Virus record (IMG/VR): IMGVR_UViG_3300043823_000486
Location: 1 to 26,030 of that record
Length of the DNA: 26,030 nucleotides
Source of the DNA: a virus
Direction: 5' to 3' (one strand)
Made by a program: the position numbers and the translations under genes. Below are positions 21,456 through 26,030 of the stretch, piece by piece. How positions within the stretch are numbered: the stretch's first letter is position 1; every line of letters starts with the position of its first letter. Below the pieces are notes generated by a model. The model saw only the letters and a program-made list of their open reading frames with translations, was not told where the DNA came from and searched no databases.

Positions 21456-22733
21456 TTAGAATCCGAATTTATCCCCGACACCGATTGCGATAGAATATAC
21501 CACAGCATCCAAAAGGTCATCACTTCGTTTATTTGCGTCAGGATCACCAATACGGAAGGTCGCTATCTGGGATAGTAAATGGTTCCGGGTTGCCCCTTTG
21601 AACGGCACTACTTTCTCATACGCATATTGCGACATTTTCACCTTCTCTTGGTGAACATAGCCCGAAATGTTGATAACCCGCTCATCTTTTCCATATTGGG
21701 TCAGCTTACTATCAATCGCGTGAACATTCCACCCCCGGTTGCGGCCCTGCTGGAGCAGGATACTCCCGGCGGCGGTATCTTCAATGAACACGCCGATATT
21801 GCCATGCGCCGCTTTGGTATTTGTAGCCAGTTCGTCCAATCTCGAAAAAACACTCGGCATCCAATTCTCAAGCAACGCACCGTCAATTTGCACAATGTCC
21901 CAGTCAAGAATAGTAAGGGGGTTGTCGCTCATGCCCGTGATTGAACAGTACACCACCGCCGTGCCATCATGCTCTTTGCCGCCCTTAACCGCGCAGTCCA
22001 TAACAGCAAACACACCCGAACAATACTTGGGGTACTCAACCGGGGGTAGCATTTTGTCGATGGACAGAATGGATACGCCCGACCAGTCCACAAATTCAGC
22101 CATGTACTCCTGCTTAAACACTAGAGGGTGGTTGCGTTTCTCCTCTAAGTCCAGTTCTTCCAGCGGGATGAACGGATTGGTATTGGTGGGGGCATGGAAT
22201 GTTTTGAACGCCATGTCATCTTCATTGCAAGCGGCATAGAAGAAGTTGTCATGGTCAACGCCATTGGGGGTGGAGAATATCCAAGTCGAACCGCGAGTCA
22301 CCAAAAGGGTAGGCTTGATGGACTTGAACCAGATTTCTTCCTTCATCTGGGGGCTTTTGGTAAATGCCGCTTCATCAATCAACACGAGGTCATATTCACG
22401 CCCCCGGCCCGCCAGTTCATTATCATTTAGCGTCCAGAAGTCAATCTTGCCGCCTGTAATAAGTTTTATTGTGCCGTCATTACGATTGGCGGTTTTGACA
22501 ATGGGGTCTAGTGTAGCCCGCAGATTATCCCAAGGCTCGGCCAGTTGCTTGTGTTCCGGAGCAAAGATTCCAACCGAGCCCCCAAAAGACGATTCCCGAC
22601 CAGCCAGCCATTCCATGAACCGGGTTTTTCCCCATCGCCGCCCGCATCGCACGGCATTGTTGCGATCACGCTGGTCGAATAGGGCTTGTTGTCCAGAATG
22701 TAATTTTTGGAGTGCAACTCGTTTAATTCGCAT
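21456..22733 (-). CDS. terL: Terminase large subunit
   Basis: This 425-residue packaging motor has an ATPase domain and an RNase H-like nuclease. Residues 30-37 hold the Walker A motif (CGRRWGKT), residues 116-121 the Walker B strand with D120-E121 (LVLIDE), and residues 154-158 the coupling motif (STPNG). The nuclease carries FAVMDC (D246), VFIEDT (E318-D319) and a C-terminal DDLLDAVVY (D405-D406 and D409) as likely metal ligands. It starts MRIKRVALQKLHSGQQALFD and overlaps the small terminase by 11 bases. It would package DNA through the portal encoded next. Confidence 0.92.
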   Translation of the reverse strand: MRIKRVALQKLHSGQQALFDQRDRNNAVRCGRRWGKTRFMEWLAGRESSFGGSVGIFAPEHKQLAEPWDNLRATLDPIVKTANRNDGTIKLITGGKIDFWTLNDNELAGRGREYDLVLIDEAAFTKSPQMKEEIWFKSIKPTLLVTRGSTWIFSTPNGVDHDNFFYAACNEDDMAFKTFHAPTNTNPFIPLEELDLEEKRNHPLVFKQEYMAEFVDWSGVSILSIDKMLPPVEYPKYCSGVFAVMDCAVKGGKEHDGTAVVYCSITGMSDNPLTILDWDIVQIDGALLENWMPSVFSRLDELATNTKAAHGNIGVFIEDTAAGSILLQQGRNRGWNVHAIDSKLTQYGKDERVINISGYVHQEKVKMSQYAYEKVVPFKGATRNHLLSQIATFRIGDPDANKRSDDLLDAVVYSIAIGVGDKFGF

Positions 22734-23094
22734 TTTCTACGAGAACTCGAACCTCGGTTACATCGTTGTCGGGTTTGGCGGGCATATACCCGTGGAAATG
22801 CGTAAGCCCAAAAATAGCCGCTTTGGTATCACCAGCAGCAGCATTGTCGTTAATGGTCTTAGCATGAAGATAATGATTTTCAGCACGGGCTTCTAAAATG
22901 GCTCGACCTACATTTGGGTCATGCTCAAGCAAAGTGGCAAAGGCTTGCGGAGTAAATCCAGCCTTAACTGCCAAAGCATCTTTTGTCAGTCCGTTGTACG
23001 CCGCATCATAGATTTTGTGAAGGTCGTGTTCAGTCGCCTTGATTTCACTCAAGGTAACGGTTACTTCAAAAAATTCTGATGGCAGTTTTTTCAT
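22723..23094 (-). CDS. terS: Terminase small subunit
   Basis: I choose the ATG at 23094 (MKKLPSEFFEVTVTLSEIKA, 123 residues). The frame is open upstream to a GTG at 23316, but that part is AT-rich and has low-complexity composition, and no good ribosome site is seen at either. The segment LTKDALAVKAGFTPQAFATL fits a helix-turn-helix, followed by a helix with AENHYLHAKTINDNAAAGD. Size and linkage to the large subunit fit a DNA-recognition subunit. It would bind the packaging site, likely the phased and repeated DNA just upstream. Confidence 0.75.
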   Translation of the reverse strand: MKKLPSEFFEVTVTLSEIKATEHDLHKIYDAAYNGLTKDALAVKAGFTPQAFATLLEHDPNVGRAILEARAENHYLHAKTINDNAAAGDTKAAIFGLTHFHGYMPAKPDNDVTEVRVLVENAN

Positions 23095-23099
23095 GGCTC

Positions 23100-23345
23100 G
23101 AAAATAACCCCTTTTTTGATTTTGTGCAAGTAAGTTATTTTGCAATAAGTTGTGTTGCAGATTTGAAAATTGAAAATTTTTGTAGGCAGGTAGGGAAGTG
23201 CAAAATAATATATTGCAGATTGAAATTTTGCATTTTTGTGTGAGTGGGTGGGGCACCCTAAAACCCGTTTTTGGATAGGCGAAAAAACCCCTAGCAAAAT
23301 CAACGACTTGCACCACGCACCACGCGAGCCGCTACTAGCACGCCG
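23100..23345. promoter_or_regulatory. AT-rich leader with phased TGCA sites
   Basis: About 246 bases before the small terminase hold no convincing gene. Six TGCA sites occur as two triplets: 23125, 23141, 23156 and 23199, 23214, 23229, each spaced 15-16 bases. Two copies of TTGCAGATT followed by GAAA lie at 23155 and 23213. A -10-like TATATT is on the minus strand at 23207-23212, without a matching -35. The stretch may contain the late promoter and terminase-binding sites. Confidence 0.5.
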
Positions 23346-23364
23346 CCGCAATGCACAAAGGCTA

Positions 23365-23817
23365 GGTGCAGGCGGCTAGGTGCAGGTGCGGCCAGCAGGT
23401 GCAGGCGGCTAGGTGCAGGTGCGGCCAGCAGGTGCAGGTGCGGCCAGCAGGTGCAGGTGCGGCCAGCAGGTGCAGGTGCGGCCAGCAGGTGCAGGCGGCT
23501 AGGTGCAGGTGCAGGCGGCTAGGTGCAGGTGCAGGCGGCTAGGTGCAGGTGCAGGCGGCTAGGTGCAGGTGCAGGCGGCTAGGTGCAGGTGCAGGCGGCT
23601 AGGTGCAGGTGCAGGCGGCTAGGTGCAGGTGCGGCCAGCAGGTGCAGGTGCGGCCAGCAGGTGCAGGTGCGGCCAGCAGGTGCAGGTGCAGGCGGCTAGG
23701 TGCAGGCGGCTAGGTGCAGGTGCGGCCAGCAGGTGCAGGTGCGGCCAGCAGGTGCAGGTGCGGCCAGCAGGTGCAGGTGCAGGCGGCTAGGTGCAGGTGC
23801 GGCCAGCAGGTGCAGGC
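23365..23817 (+). repeat. Modular GC-rich direct-repeat array
   Basis: About 450 bases are made of three modules: GGTGCA (a), GGCGGCTA (b) and GGTGCGGCCAGCA (c). They combine into 24 units of 14 (ab), 19 (ac) or 20 (aab) bases: four ab, twelve ac, eight aab. The order is ab, ac, ab, four ac, ab, six aab, three ac, aab, ab, three ac, aab, ac. Copies are essentially identical, so homogenisation is recent. There are no unique spacers, so it is not a CRISPR. It lies between divergent transcription units, upstream of the small terminase, and may be the packaging site or an origin. Confidence 0.92.
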
Positions 23818-23849
23818 TTATTAAGCCGCCTGCACCTGCTGGCCGCACC
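23796..23849. repeat. Terminal inverted repeat of the array
   Basis: The last array copy (23796-23817) and its exact reverse complement (23828-23849) form a 22-base perfect palindrome with a ten-base centre. Within the centre, GGCTTA and TAAGCC can pair in an alternative way. The inverted side continues as two c modules in tandem to 23862. The DNA could form a cruciform, or the RNA a long hairpin. Confidence 0.9.
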
Positions 23850-23870
23850 TGCTGGCCGCACCTATGCCAC

Positions 23871-24230
23871 ATTGTCACCTTGTCACCAATAAACAGGCGG
23901 CCATGTAATAGTGCGCGGTGTGCATTTTGGGGGGTGCAGAGCGGGGACGGGGTGTTACATTGTCAAACGTGACAATTTACACCCTAGCATTGGCGCGGGT
24001 TTCAAGGCTAAATTGTCAAAAATCAGATTGTCACGCAAATAAAATCCGTCTGGCGTTTACAGGATTTTTGGGCGTTTTGCGCTAAACCCTAAATTTTCAT
24101 ATTTATATCCCTTACTATTTATATATAAATGACAATCTGGCATAAAACAGGGCCACCCCGCGCCACTGCTAGGGCTCGCGGTTGTCACCCGCCGTCATTT
24201 TCGCGACAATCCGCGACAACGTTTGACAAC
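23871..24230. repeat. Eleven TTGTCA-type half-sites (iterons or operators)
   Basis: Sites with TTGTCA or its complement (one-base variants CGACAA included) occur on the plus strand at 23871, 23880, 23959, 24012, 24027 and 24182, and inverted at 23970, 24130, 24204, 24214 and 24224. The pair at 23959-23976 is a perfect 7-4-7 inverted repeat, ATTGTCA-AACG-TGACAAT. The last sites overlap a promoter. This clustering fits binding sites for a repressor or replication initiator. Confidence 0.75.
24089..24136. other. AT-rich island (possible DNA unwinding element)
   Basis: This segment (aaattttcatatttatatcc onward to atatataaatgacaat) is almost free of G and C and contains two copies of TATTTATAT. 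It sits among the TTGTCA sites. An AT-rich block beside iterons is typical of a replication origin, but composition alone does not prove it. Confidence 0.45.
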
Positions 24231-24251
24231 CGCAAAACAGTCTTTTACTAT
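24223..24251 (+). promoter_or_regulatory. Sigma70-type promoter of the rightward operon
   Basis: TTGACA at 24223-24228 and TACTAT at 24246-24251 are separated by exactly 17 bases. The predicted start near 24258 gives a short leader before the ATG at 24296. The -35 hexamer is part of a TGACAA repeat site, so a protein bound there would block transcription. Confidence 0.78.
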
Positions 24252-24295
24252 GCCCCTTGCTGTACCCTTTTTTAATAACATCGGAGAATTTGAAA

Positions 24296-24472
24296 ATGAC
24301 CAATCATCTTGGAGAGCGTGAATACTTCACTTTCGGCAAGTGGATAAAGGCTTGCCGGGCCGCTTGCGACTATGTGCGTTTTGAAGGCAATTCCGAAATA
24401 TGTAATGCCCTACCCGGTGTAGGTGAATGGGACGGGGAAAAGGGCGTTATTTACAATAAGGAGGGCAAATAA
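24296..24472 (+). CDS. Small hypothetical protein (58 aa)
   Basis: This protein starts at the ATG at 24296, with GGAG about nine bases upstream; a longer frame reaches the promoter and is unlikely. It reads MTNHLGEREYFTFGKWIKAC and has three Cys residues (20, 24 and 36), two of them in CRAAC. No family is recognised. It is the first gene of the rightward operon and its stop overlaps the amidoligase start as TAATG. A small regulator or cofactor of the ligase is conceivable, without direct support. Confidence 0.7.
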   Translation: MTNHLGEREYFTFGKWIKACRAACDYVRFEGNSEICNALPGVGEWDGEKGVIYNKEGK

Positions 24473-25737
24473 TGGAAACCTATTCATGCGATGTGGCGAT
24501 GGAATACGATTCTGAAGGTTATAACGCGGACGGCTATAACATGGCCGGGTTTGATCGCGAAGGTTACAACCCGGCGGGGTTTGATGCGGACGGGTACGAC
24601 CGCGAAGGGTACGATCATTGGGGGTTTGATCGCGAAGGGTACGACAGTGACGGCTATAACAGTGACGGCTATAACAGTGACGGCTATAACAGTGACGGCT
24701 ATAACGCGGACGGCTATGACAGGTACGGCTATAACGCGGACGGCTATGACAGGTACGGCTATAACAGTGACGGCTATGACGAGGACGGCTATGACCGCAA
24801 CGGCTACAACGAGGACGGCTATGACCGCAACGGCTACGACAGTGACGGCTACGACAGTGACGGCTACGACAGTGACGGCTACGATAATGACGACAATCAT
24901 CGCAACGGCGGCACGCGCGCAGATCGCGAGATTATCGGCGAGTATCACACAAGCCGCCGCATATTGGGCCACATCCCAAGTGATGCGGACAAGGAAACAC
25001 CCCGCGTACTGGTAGGGTTGGAACTAGAATTGGAAACAACAAACAGATTAAACGCCGCCCGCTATGTGATAGACCGCGCCGGGAAAACCCCGGATGGCTA
25101 CAGGTACGCGCTCTGCGAAAATGACGGTTCTTTGGATGACGGTTTTGAGATTGTCACTGGCTATTCCGGCATATCCACACACCGCGCCATGTTAGAGCGT
25201 TTGTTGGTATCGGGCAAAATTCCCAATGCCCAAAGCCACAACACTACCACGTGCGGATTGCACGTCCACGTTTGTAAGGCGAGCATGACGATGTACCACG
25301 CGGCCAAGTTGATCATGTTCATCCATGCGCCGGAAAATCAGGATTTTATTCGCCTACTGGCCCGCCGCGCATCAAATGGCTATGCGGAAGTGTGCGACAA
25401 AAAGAATGATAAATACTGGCTACAGCGAGCACATAACAGAACCAAACAGGGATATTCCAGAATGGATGCGCTCCAGTCATTAAACGAGGCCTCACGTTAT
25501 GAAGCCCTGAATTTTCGGAACTATTCAACAATCGAGTTCAGAATGTTTCGCGGCACGTTGAAAGCCTCTACTGTTTTGGCCTGTTTAGAGTTTGCCCGTA
25601 TCTGTTGGTTCTTTTCCCGCGATACTAGCGCTAACAATCTCACGGCCCTGGCCTTCATGGAATATATCAACCGGCCCGAAAATCGCGCCGATACCGCCGC
25701 GCTCCGCGCCTACTATAAAGAAAAGGGGGCCATGTAA
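24472..25737 (+). CDS. Amidoligase with 25 acidic Gly-Tyr pentapeptide repeats
   Basis: This 421-residue protein has two halves. Residues 16-140 are 25 tandem five-residue repeats, Gly-Tyr/Phe-Asp/Asn-x-x, with Asp or Glu often fifth. Residues about 178-400 match the Amidoligase_2 (COOH-NH2 ligase, glutamine-synthetase-like) family: VGLELELE (181-188), ENDGSLDDGFEIVT (216-229), CGLHVHV (261-267), and NFRNYSTIEFRMFRGTL (347-363). Glu and His in these motifs fit the metal and ATP site. Such enzymes join a carboxylate to an amine using ATP. Acidic repeats and the neighbouring amidotransferase suggest a peptide-tagging or ligation pathway. The actual substrate is unknown; the repeat could be self-substrate, docking arm or ligand. 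Confidence 0.88.
   Translation: METYSCDVAMEYDSEGYNADGYNMAGFDREGYNPAGFDADGYDREGYDHWGFDREGYDSDGYNSDGYNSDGYNSDGYNADGYDRYGYNADGYDRYGYNSDGYDEDGYDRNGYNEDGYDRNGYDSDGYDSDGYDSDGYDNDDNHRNGGTRADREIIGEYHTSRRILGHIPSDADKETPRVLVGLELELETTNRLNAARYVIDRAGKTPDGYRYALCENDGSLDDGFEIVTGYSGISTHRAMLERLLVSGKIPNAQSHNTTTCGLHVHVCKASMTMYHAAKLIMFIHAPENQDFIRLLARRASNGYAEVCDKKNDKYWLQRAHNRTKQGYSRMDALQSLNEASRYEALNFRNYSTIEFRMFRGTLKASTVLACLEFARICWFFSRDTSANNLTALAFMEYINRPENRADTAALRAYYKEKGAM
24517..24891 (+). repeat. 15-bp tandem coding repeat of the amidoligase
   Basis: Twenty-five 15-base units encode GYNSD-type pentapeptides. Central units (24652-24711) are nearly identical in DNA, while outer ones differ, suggesting recent expansion of the middle. 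The GC-rich repeat opens long frames on both strands, which are artefacts. Confidence 0.92.
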
Positions 25738-25880
25738 TGACTGCCGAACAATTAGCAGTAAAGATTTTAATGGAAGCTGTTTTAGACGATGACAGCGAAA
25801 ACGGTTTTATTCAAGTAAATCCGGATGAACTATTCCGGTTTTACGTTTTGCACAATTTAGCCAAAGCGGAGGCCAAATAA
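25737..25880 (+). CDS. Small hypothetical protein (47 aa)
   Basis: Its ATG overlaps the amidoligase stop as TAATG, and its stop overlaps the next start in the same way. It reads MTAEQLAVKILMEAVLDDDS and ends VLHNLAKAEAK. It is acidic in the centre, helical, and has no signal or membrane segment. No family is recognised. Tight coupling on both sides shows it is translated with the ligase and membrane peptide, so a partner role is plausible. Confidence 0.7.
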   Translation: MTAEQLAVKILMEAVLDDDSENGFIQVNPDELFRFYVLHNLAKAEAK

Positions 25881-25960
25881 TGACTGCCATTAAAATGATG
25901 CTCTACGCGCTCGCGCTCTCTGCAATTATCCTTGCCACTTACTTACTTTGGAGCATTTGA
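25880..25960 (+). CDS. 26-residue single-span membrane peptide
   Basis: The peptide begins MTAIKMMLYALALSAIILAT and ends YLLWSI. Residues 7-25 form one hydrophobic helix behind a single Lys, so it should insert in the inner membrane. Its start overlaps the previous stop (TAATG) and its own TGA is two bases before the next ATG. It is shorter than typical holins. A membrane anchor or small toxin-like peptide are options. Confidence 0.6.
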   Translation: MTAIKMMLYALALSAIILATYLLWSI

Positions 25961-25962
25961 TT

Positions 25963-26030
25963 ATGTGCCTGCTAATTACTCAAAACGAAAACAGCGATAA
26001 CCTTGGCAAAAGTTGGCTTGCCGATTTCTT
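25963..26030 (+). CDS. Class II glutamine amidotransferase-like protein (partial)
   Basis: The first 22 residues, MCLLITQNENSDNLGKSWLA plus DF, lie before the right edge. A Cys directly after the initiator Met is the mark of class II (Ntn-type) glutamine amidotransferases, in which Cys becomes the N-terminal nucleophile; phage members often begin MCLxx and continue with an Asp-Gly-(I/W)-G-V-M segment, not visible here. Such genes are known next to amidoligases in phages and would supply ammonia or act as a peptide-cleaving partner. The fragment is short, so the call is moderate. Confidence 0.6.
   Translation, partial: MCLLITQNENSDNLGKSWLADF

Follow-up and report, generated by a model that had tools for sequence, protein, structure and literature searches.

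Iteron-type or box-flanked origins of replication, such as P4 ori and lambda ori, occur in phages and plasmids. The region described here resembles them in its repeated short boxes, its AT-rich core and its non-coding location, as well as in the SF3-type primase-helicase of related genomes, and differs in that its boxes are mirrored around the core, its long GC-rich array is unlike iterons, and the window (the whole 26,030-bp viral contig that was analysed) carries no replication gene. Packaging sites provide a second comparison. The pac region of SPP1, which spans the terS promoters and the terS start, holds three sets of direct repeats at terS (PMC4737164). The SPP1 and SF6 pac sites (PMC4737164) share with the window the presence of direct repeats near terS and its promoters, poorly conserved between relatives, whereas the window array is much longer, lies 271 to 721 bp from the terS start, and has a comparable counterpart next to an unrelated TerS. 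The arrays of GCTA-core heptamers that we find in related contigs (L105, L112, L115, L116, L134, L137, L139) occupy the same interval upstream of terS, turn over quickly and in some cases combine two flavours of module (GCTAACA/GCTAAGG), as in the window; in contrast, the window units are GC-rich and 13, 14 and 6 bp long rather than 7 bp, and no dif-like site accompanies them. Our literature search found no paper that deals with the terS-upstream region or with phage origins carrying heptamer arrays. Repeat-bearing control regions as such are already known; the GC-rich modules add a new variant.

The window is a fragment from a contractile-tailed phage and encodes TerL, portal, capsid and sheath proteins. 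We read it as a freshwater myovirus, the freshwater (humic lake) origin of the related contigs being our own reading of the data set. Head genes are distantly common to its relatives and to the Felixviridae, in which homologues of TerL (54%) and portal (48%) are found (Klebsiella RothC/D, Chronis; PMC12451628); RothD differs in having an integrase, CI and a RecT/exonuclease module. A blastn search with positions 23000–26030 gave no match in phages.

Composition and growth of the array

The array lies in a divergent non-coding region upstream of the putative terS gene (Table 1), whose ATG start at 23094 is supported by homology. The initial annotation placed it directly upstream of the small terminase; the side is right, and the gap to the start codon is 271 bp at the near end and 721 bp at the far end. 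The identification of TerS itself is provisional, as it rests on gene position, one PHROG match in a homologue (phrog_309, E = 1e-4) and a predicted HTH-type structure (mean pLDDT 77) whose best PDB matches are weak and include the small terminases of PaP3, NV1 and Sf6.

Table 1. Coordinates of the features in and around the non-coding region of the window.
Feature	Position	Strand	Details
Large terminase subunit gene	21456..22733	-	
Putative small terminase subunit gene	22723..23094	-	123 aa, HTH-type model
Divergent non-coding region	23095..24295	.	1.2 kb; encloses array, boxes, AT core and block
Conserved block between repeats and terS	23262..23295	-	GCTAGGGGTTTTTTCGCCTATCCAAAA on - strand
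Two-flavour tandem array	23366..23815	+	12 B, 12 C, 21 a
Exact 33-bp tandem duplication (BaC BaC)	23366..23431	+	23366-23398 = 23399-23431
Exact 91-bp tandem duplication (BaCaCaCaB BaCaCaCaB)	23609..23790	+	23609-23699 = 23700-23790
Terminal inverted repeat	23793..23852	.	25-bp perfect arms 23793-23817 / 23828-23852
Inverted copy of array modules	23824..23861	-	Partial B then C C, without a spacers
Nine TTGTCA/TGACAA boxes	23872..24229	.	Both orientations; TTGTCA on + at 23872, 23880, 23960, 24013, 24028, 24182; TGACAA on + at 23970, 24130, 24224
AT-rich core	24090..24139	.	82% A+T, starts at a box
Sigma-70-like promoter	24223..24251	+	Upstream of 24296, overlaps TGACAA box; consensus match only
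Small ORF, first gene beyond non-coding region	24296..24472	+	58 aa

All 450 bp of the array are tiled end to end by three modules with zero mismatches, in agreement with the 24 long units drawn from three modules that had been noted at first. As assembled in this metagenome contig, module B (GTGCAGGCGGCTAG, 14 bp) occurs 12 times, module C (GTGCGGCCAGCAG, 13 bp) 12 times and module a (GTGCAG, 6 bp) 21 times. With a TRF score of 512, far above chance, the head-to-tail copies make the interval a tandem repeat array or minisatellite. The module order reads BaC BaCaCaCaC BaBaBaBaBaBaBaCaCaCaB BaCaCaCaBaCa, where a missing a spacer marks each border between four blocks, all of them starting with B. 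The exact tandem duplications coincide with two of the three junctions between blocks, and the sole B–B contact in the array is the junction of the 91-bp duplication; a tandem duplication of such length appears in 8% of shuffled module orders. The runs of four, six, three and three units that had been described are present in this order, and their reading as a non-random grouping did not hold up, the clustering of flavours (10 runs) not being significantly different from random (P = 0.15).

Module order indicates that the 33- and 91-bp duplications were left by unequal exchange or slippage, a view supported by their exactness and by the turnover of units between near relatives, and one in line with the initial suggestion that the order of the modules may record unequal exchange. 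The absence of mismatches implies that amplification was very recent. The array is real, well described and one case of a family-wide pattern. How it grew is fairly clear; its function we can only infer.

The array was said to end in a perfect palindrome. What is present instead is an inverted repeat whose 25-bp arms are separated by a 10-nt loop (TTATTAAGCC), which can alternatively be parsed as a 13-nt GGCTTA-T-TAAGCC core, the right arm then carrying 3 inserted nt. Because it continues with C C without an a spacer, the inverted side does not mirror the main array; a fold-back (template-switch) event may have given rise to this inverted copy. As single-stranded DNA, the inverted repeat folds stably (z = −7.6 vs. 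shuffles with DNA parameters). A protelomerase (telRL) site was considered and rejected, as the long palindrome is imperfect and its centre asymmetric, and a CRISPR array was rejected since there are no unique spacers between the repeats. Searches of viral contigs gave no match to an array 25-mer and only three single copies of a 16-mer, all outside arrays; blastn of the array gave no match in phages or plasmids.

The terS-upstream region in related genomes

Relatives were collected as viral contigs from public metagenomes by TerL, TerS and capsid searches, and the stretch upstream of terS in 23 non-redundant relatives was examined for arrays with a TRF score of at least 70. Tandem arrays were found there in 15 of these 23, all with the same TerS family, so the initial statement that such arrays are uncommon is wrong here. 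The region is mostly non-coding and divergent in these relatives, and in most of the family the arrays sit 0.2–0.8 kb upstream of terS. Their units vary widely (GCTAACA, AGCTAAC, GCTAGTT, ACCGGCT, 14-mers, 20-mers and 22-mers), with two-flavour GCTAACA/GCTAAGG arrays in L112 and L116. The array unit changes even between near relatives with similar flanks: the 22-mers differ between L015 and L016, and the copy number of TTTAGGG is 15.6 in L175 and 14.6 in L177. Whichever function applies, such turnover between close relatives is consistent with slippage and unequal exchange. Pooled relatives show a 7-bp period from −650 to −180 relative to terS (z = 27 at lag 7, 20 at 14 and 18 at 21), which persists in 13 regions without obvious arrays (z = 16) and from which the window array departs.

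As a separate observation, the TTTAGGG heptamer is repeated 6–16 times in L166, L175 and L177, about 1.3 kb upstream of terL and just upstream of the left-hand genes; L175 and L177 are otherwise near-identical contigs despite the copy difference. TTTAGGG has the same letters as the plant telomere unit.

The order of elements in the relatives is fixed: mirrored TGACAA/TTGTCA boxes with an AT-rich core between them, then the repeat arrays, then a conserved block near GGGGTTTTTTCGCCTATC, then terS. The window retains boxes, AT core, array and block, and its boxes number nine in the non-array spacer against 0.33 expected for TGACAA. Taken together, 24 non-redundant regions show boxes in mirrored orientation on the two sides of the AT core (49/12 vs. 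12/49, Fisher 2e-11, where boxes from related phages are not independent events), and a similar arrangement of boxes and core is found in the relatives. The alignment of the core DNA itself is weak (mean column identity 49%), and TGACAA boxes are absent from the sublineage relatives L087 and L016. For AATTGTCA, most genome copies fall in the terS-upstream region in G001, G003, G006, G007 and G008, with less concentration in G016 and G009; several of these relatives are complete or near-complete. In G007 and G008 the two contig ends overlap almost identically, over 169 and about 115 bp, which suggests that both are complete at about 50 kb and were opened at different points. A conserved dyad, TTAGTNNNNACTAA, lies about 100 bp upstream of terS or the preceding gene in L087, L015, L105, L108 and L134, and is probably an operator or promoter element.

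A DUF5906 primase-helicase and a family A polymerase are encoded in the relatives; the window record covers no early genes. The region is present in all seven of the sampled genomes with the PolA/SF3-primase/helicase module, and both array and box cluster are missing from the eight 43–49-kb records without this module. As the sampled genomes combine this TerS family with the replication module, the effects of the two are inseparable there, with the exception of G014, where an array lies upstream of an unrelated TerS.

A Xer/dif-like site of 28 bp (11-6-11, RTTTGACATAA-N6-TTATACGCAAN), in which the arms are conserved and the 6 bp between them vary, is found in 16 of the 23 non-redundant relatives, at −225 to −451 from terS in L137, L139, L112, L105, L115, L104, L114, L108, L122 and others, with weaker sites at G014:2973 and G016:2732. 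It is the best such site genome-wide in G006–G009. The idea of a segregation or Xer-like site thus holds for most relatives and fails for the window, where the best score in the non-coding region for 11-6-11 arms around ATAA-N6-TTAT is 1.9 vs. 20–37 in the relatives. No tyrosine recombinase was found in the thirteen relatives searched for one, and no ParA in six. The dif-like site raises the question of whether host XerCD serves phages that encode no recombinase themselves.

Possible functions of the region

We tentatively favour the array being the recently amplified repeat component of an origin-like control region that, in this freshwater-myovirus family, has the divergent left-hand genes on one side and the packaging operon on the other. 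This is supported by the mirrored boxes and AT core, and by the PolA/SF3-type replication module of the family; the window has both a cluster of short boxes and, adjoining it, an AT-rich core of the unwinding type, as in box-flanked origins. Also in favour are the concentration of AATTGTCA in this region, the tandem arrays in the same interval of 15 of 23 relatives, the family-wide 7-bp period, the duplications inside the array and the turnover of its units. The plasmid-like origin first proposed for the array gains support as far as the surrounding DNA is concerned. A phage protein would bind the boxes and open the AT core, the simplest candidates being the replication initiator and the SF3-type primase-helicase of the relatives. 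The repeats might offer additional binding sites or act as a spacer, their presence counting for more than their exact letters, in which case the GC-rich 13-, 14- and 6-bp modules would be a lineage-specific replacement of the GCTA-core heptamers. The lack of a replication gene in the window speaks against the origin, GC skew shows no consistent switch at the region, and the same anatomy of boxes and AT core could serve divergent promoters. The departure of the window array from the 7-bp period, the missing boxes of L087 and L016 and the weak alignment of the core count against it as well. If the region is an origin, the replication locus would be easy to recognise throughout a large family of uncultured lake phages, with repeats that evolve far faster than the frame around them; the importance of array presence versus sequence would become testable, and the arrays would offer fast markers for strain tracking.

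The joint occurrence of the region and the PolA/SF3 module in the sampled genomes fits an origin, and the TerS family that the same genomes share is compatible with packaging as well. The array would then belong to the site where packaging starts (pac or cos), and the small terminase, whose gene begins 271 bp away, would bind it, a reading that we regard as doubtful but worth keeping. The repeats do lie next to terS, as they do in most of the family, beside a conserved block; three direct-repeat sets mark pac in SPP1 (PMC4737164), and the predicted TerS is an HTH protein with its nearest solved folds, weakly, among small terminases. The array next to an unrelated TerS in G014 weakens a TerS-specific site, since arrays do not accompany one TerS type only. 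Among the contigs compared, ends near terS do not fall on a common nucleotide and do not cluster, and neither mirrored boxes nor an AT core are necessary for packaging.

It seems unlikely that the array is a neutral minisatellite without a function of its own, one that polymerase slippage and unequal exchange produced because the non-coding spacer tolerates such changes. Such a history would account for units that differ among near relatives, for the very recent amplification implied by zero mismatches, and for a flavour order indistinguishable from random. It is harder to reconcile with an array position that stays constant between the boxes and the conserved block, and with a 7-bp period kept across strongly diverged regions even where arrays are not obvious, although a shared period could still be what is left of a single ancestral heptamer array that decayed.

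An extension of the origin-like reading, to which we give equally little weight, is that these integrase-less myoviruses have a plasmid-like maintenance locus here, in which an SF3-type origin and its mirrored boxes are combined with a dif-like site and a fast-diverging heptad array; the window would be a variant without the Xer site, in which a GC-rich array replaces the heptads. The dif-like site would borrow host XerCD, either to separate multimers of the genome or for integration at the host dif.

De Bruijn assemblers usually collapse repeats rather than expand them. We therefore find it very unlikely that assembly has distorted, even in part, the number or order of the repeats, the more so as two flavours follow each other irregularly between unique flanks on both sides and the relatives carry arrays too. 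Contigs L015 and L016 do begin inside arrays, and the copy number is uncertain, coming as it does from 450 error-free bases of short repeats in a metagenome contig. A transcribed RNA element, whether the sponge initially proposed or a structured RNA, is scarcely credible despite the strong fold of the terminal inverted repeat with DNA parameters, as the array has no Rfam match, folds no better than shuffles in its main part (z = −1.1) and has no terminator-like site.

Repeats also occur within genes of the window. After the small ORF at 24296 comes a putative amidoligase gene (24472–25737), about 130 N-terminal residues of which are pentapeptide repeats of DGYNS/DREGY type encoded by a 15-bp array (24643–24892). 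Its homologue in L087 (52%) belongs to a phage contig that was placed in a Mucilaginibacter MAG, probably by mistaken binning since the relatives of L087 are free viral contigs. At the other end, a tail-fibre-like gene (3–1928) codes for long collagen-like repeats of SGYSGISG type, and several tandem arrays that overlap one another (306–1100) encode them.
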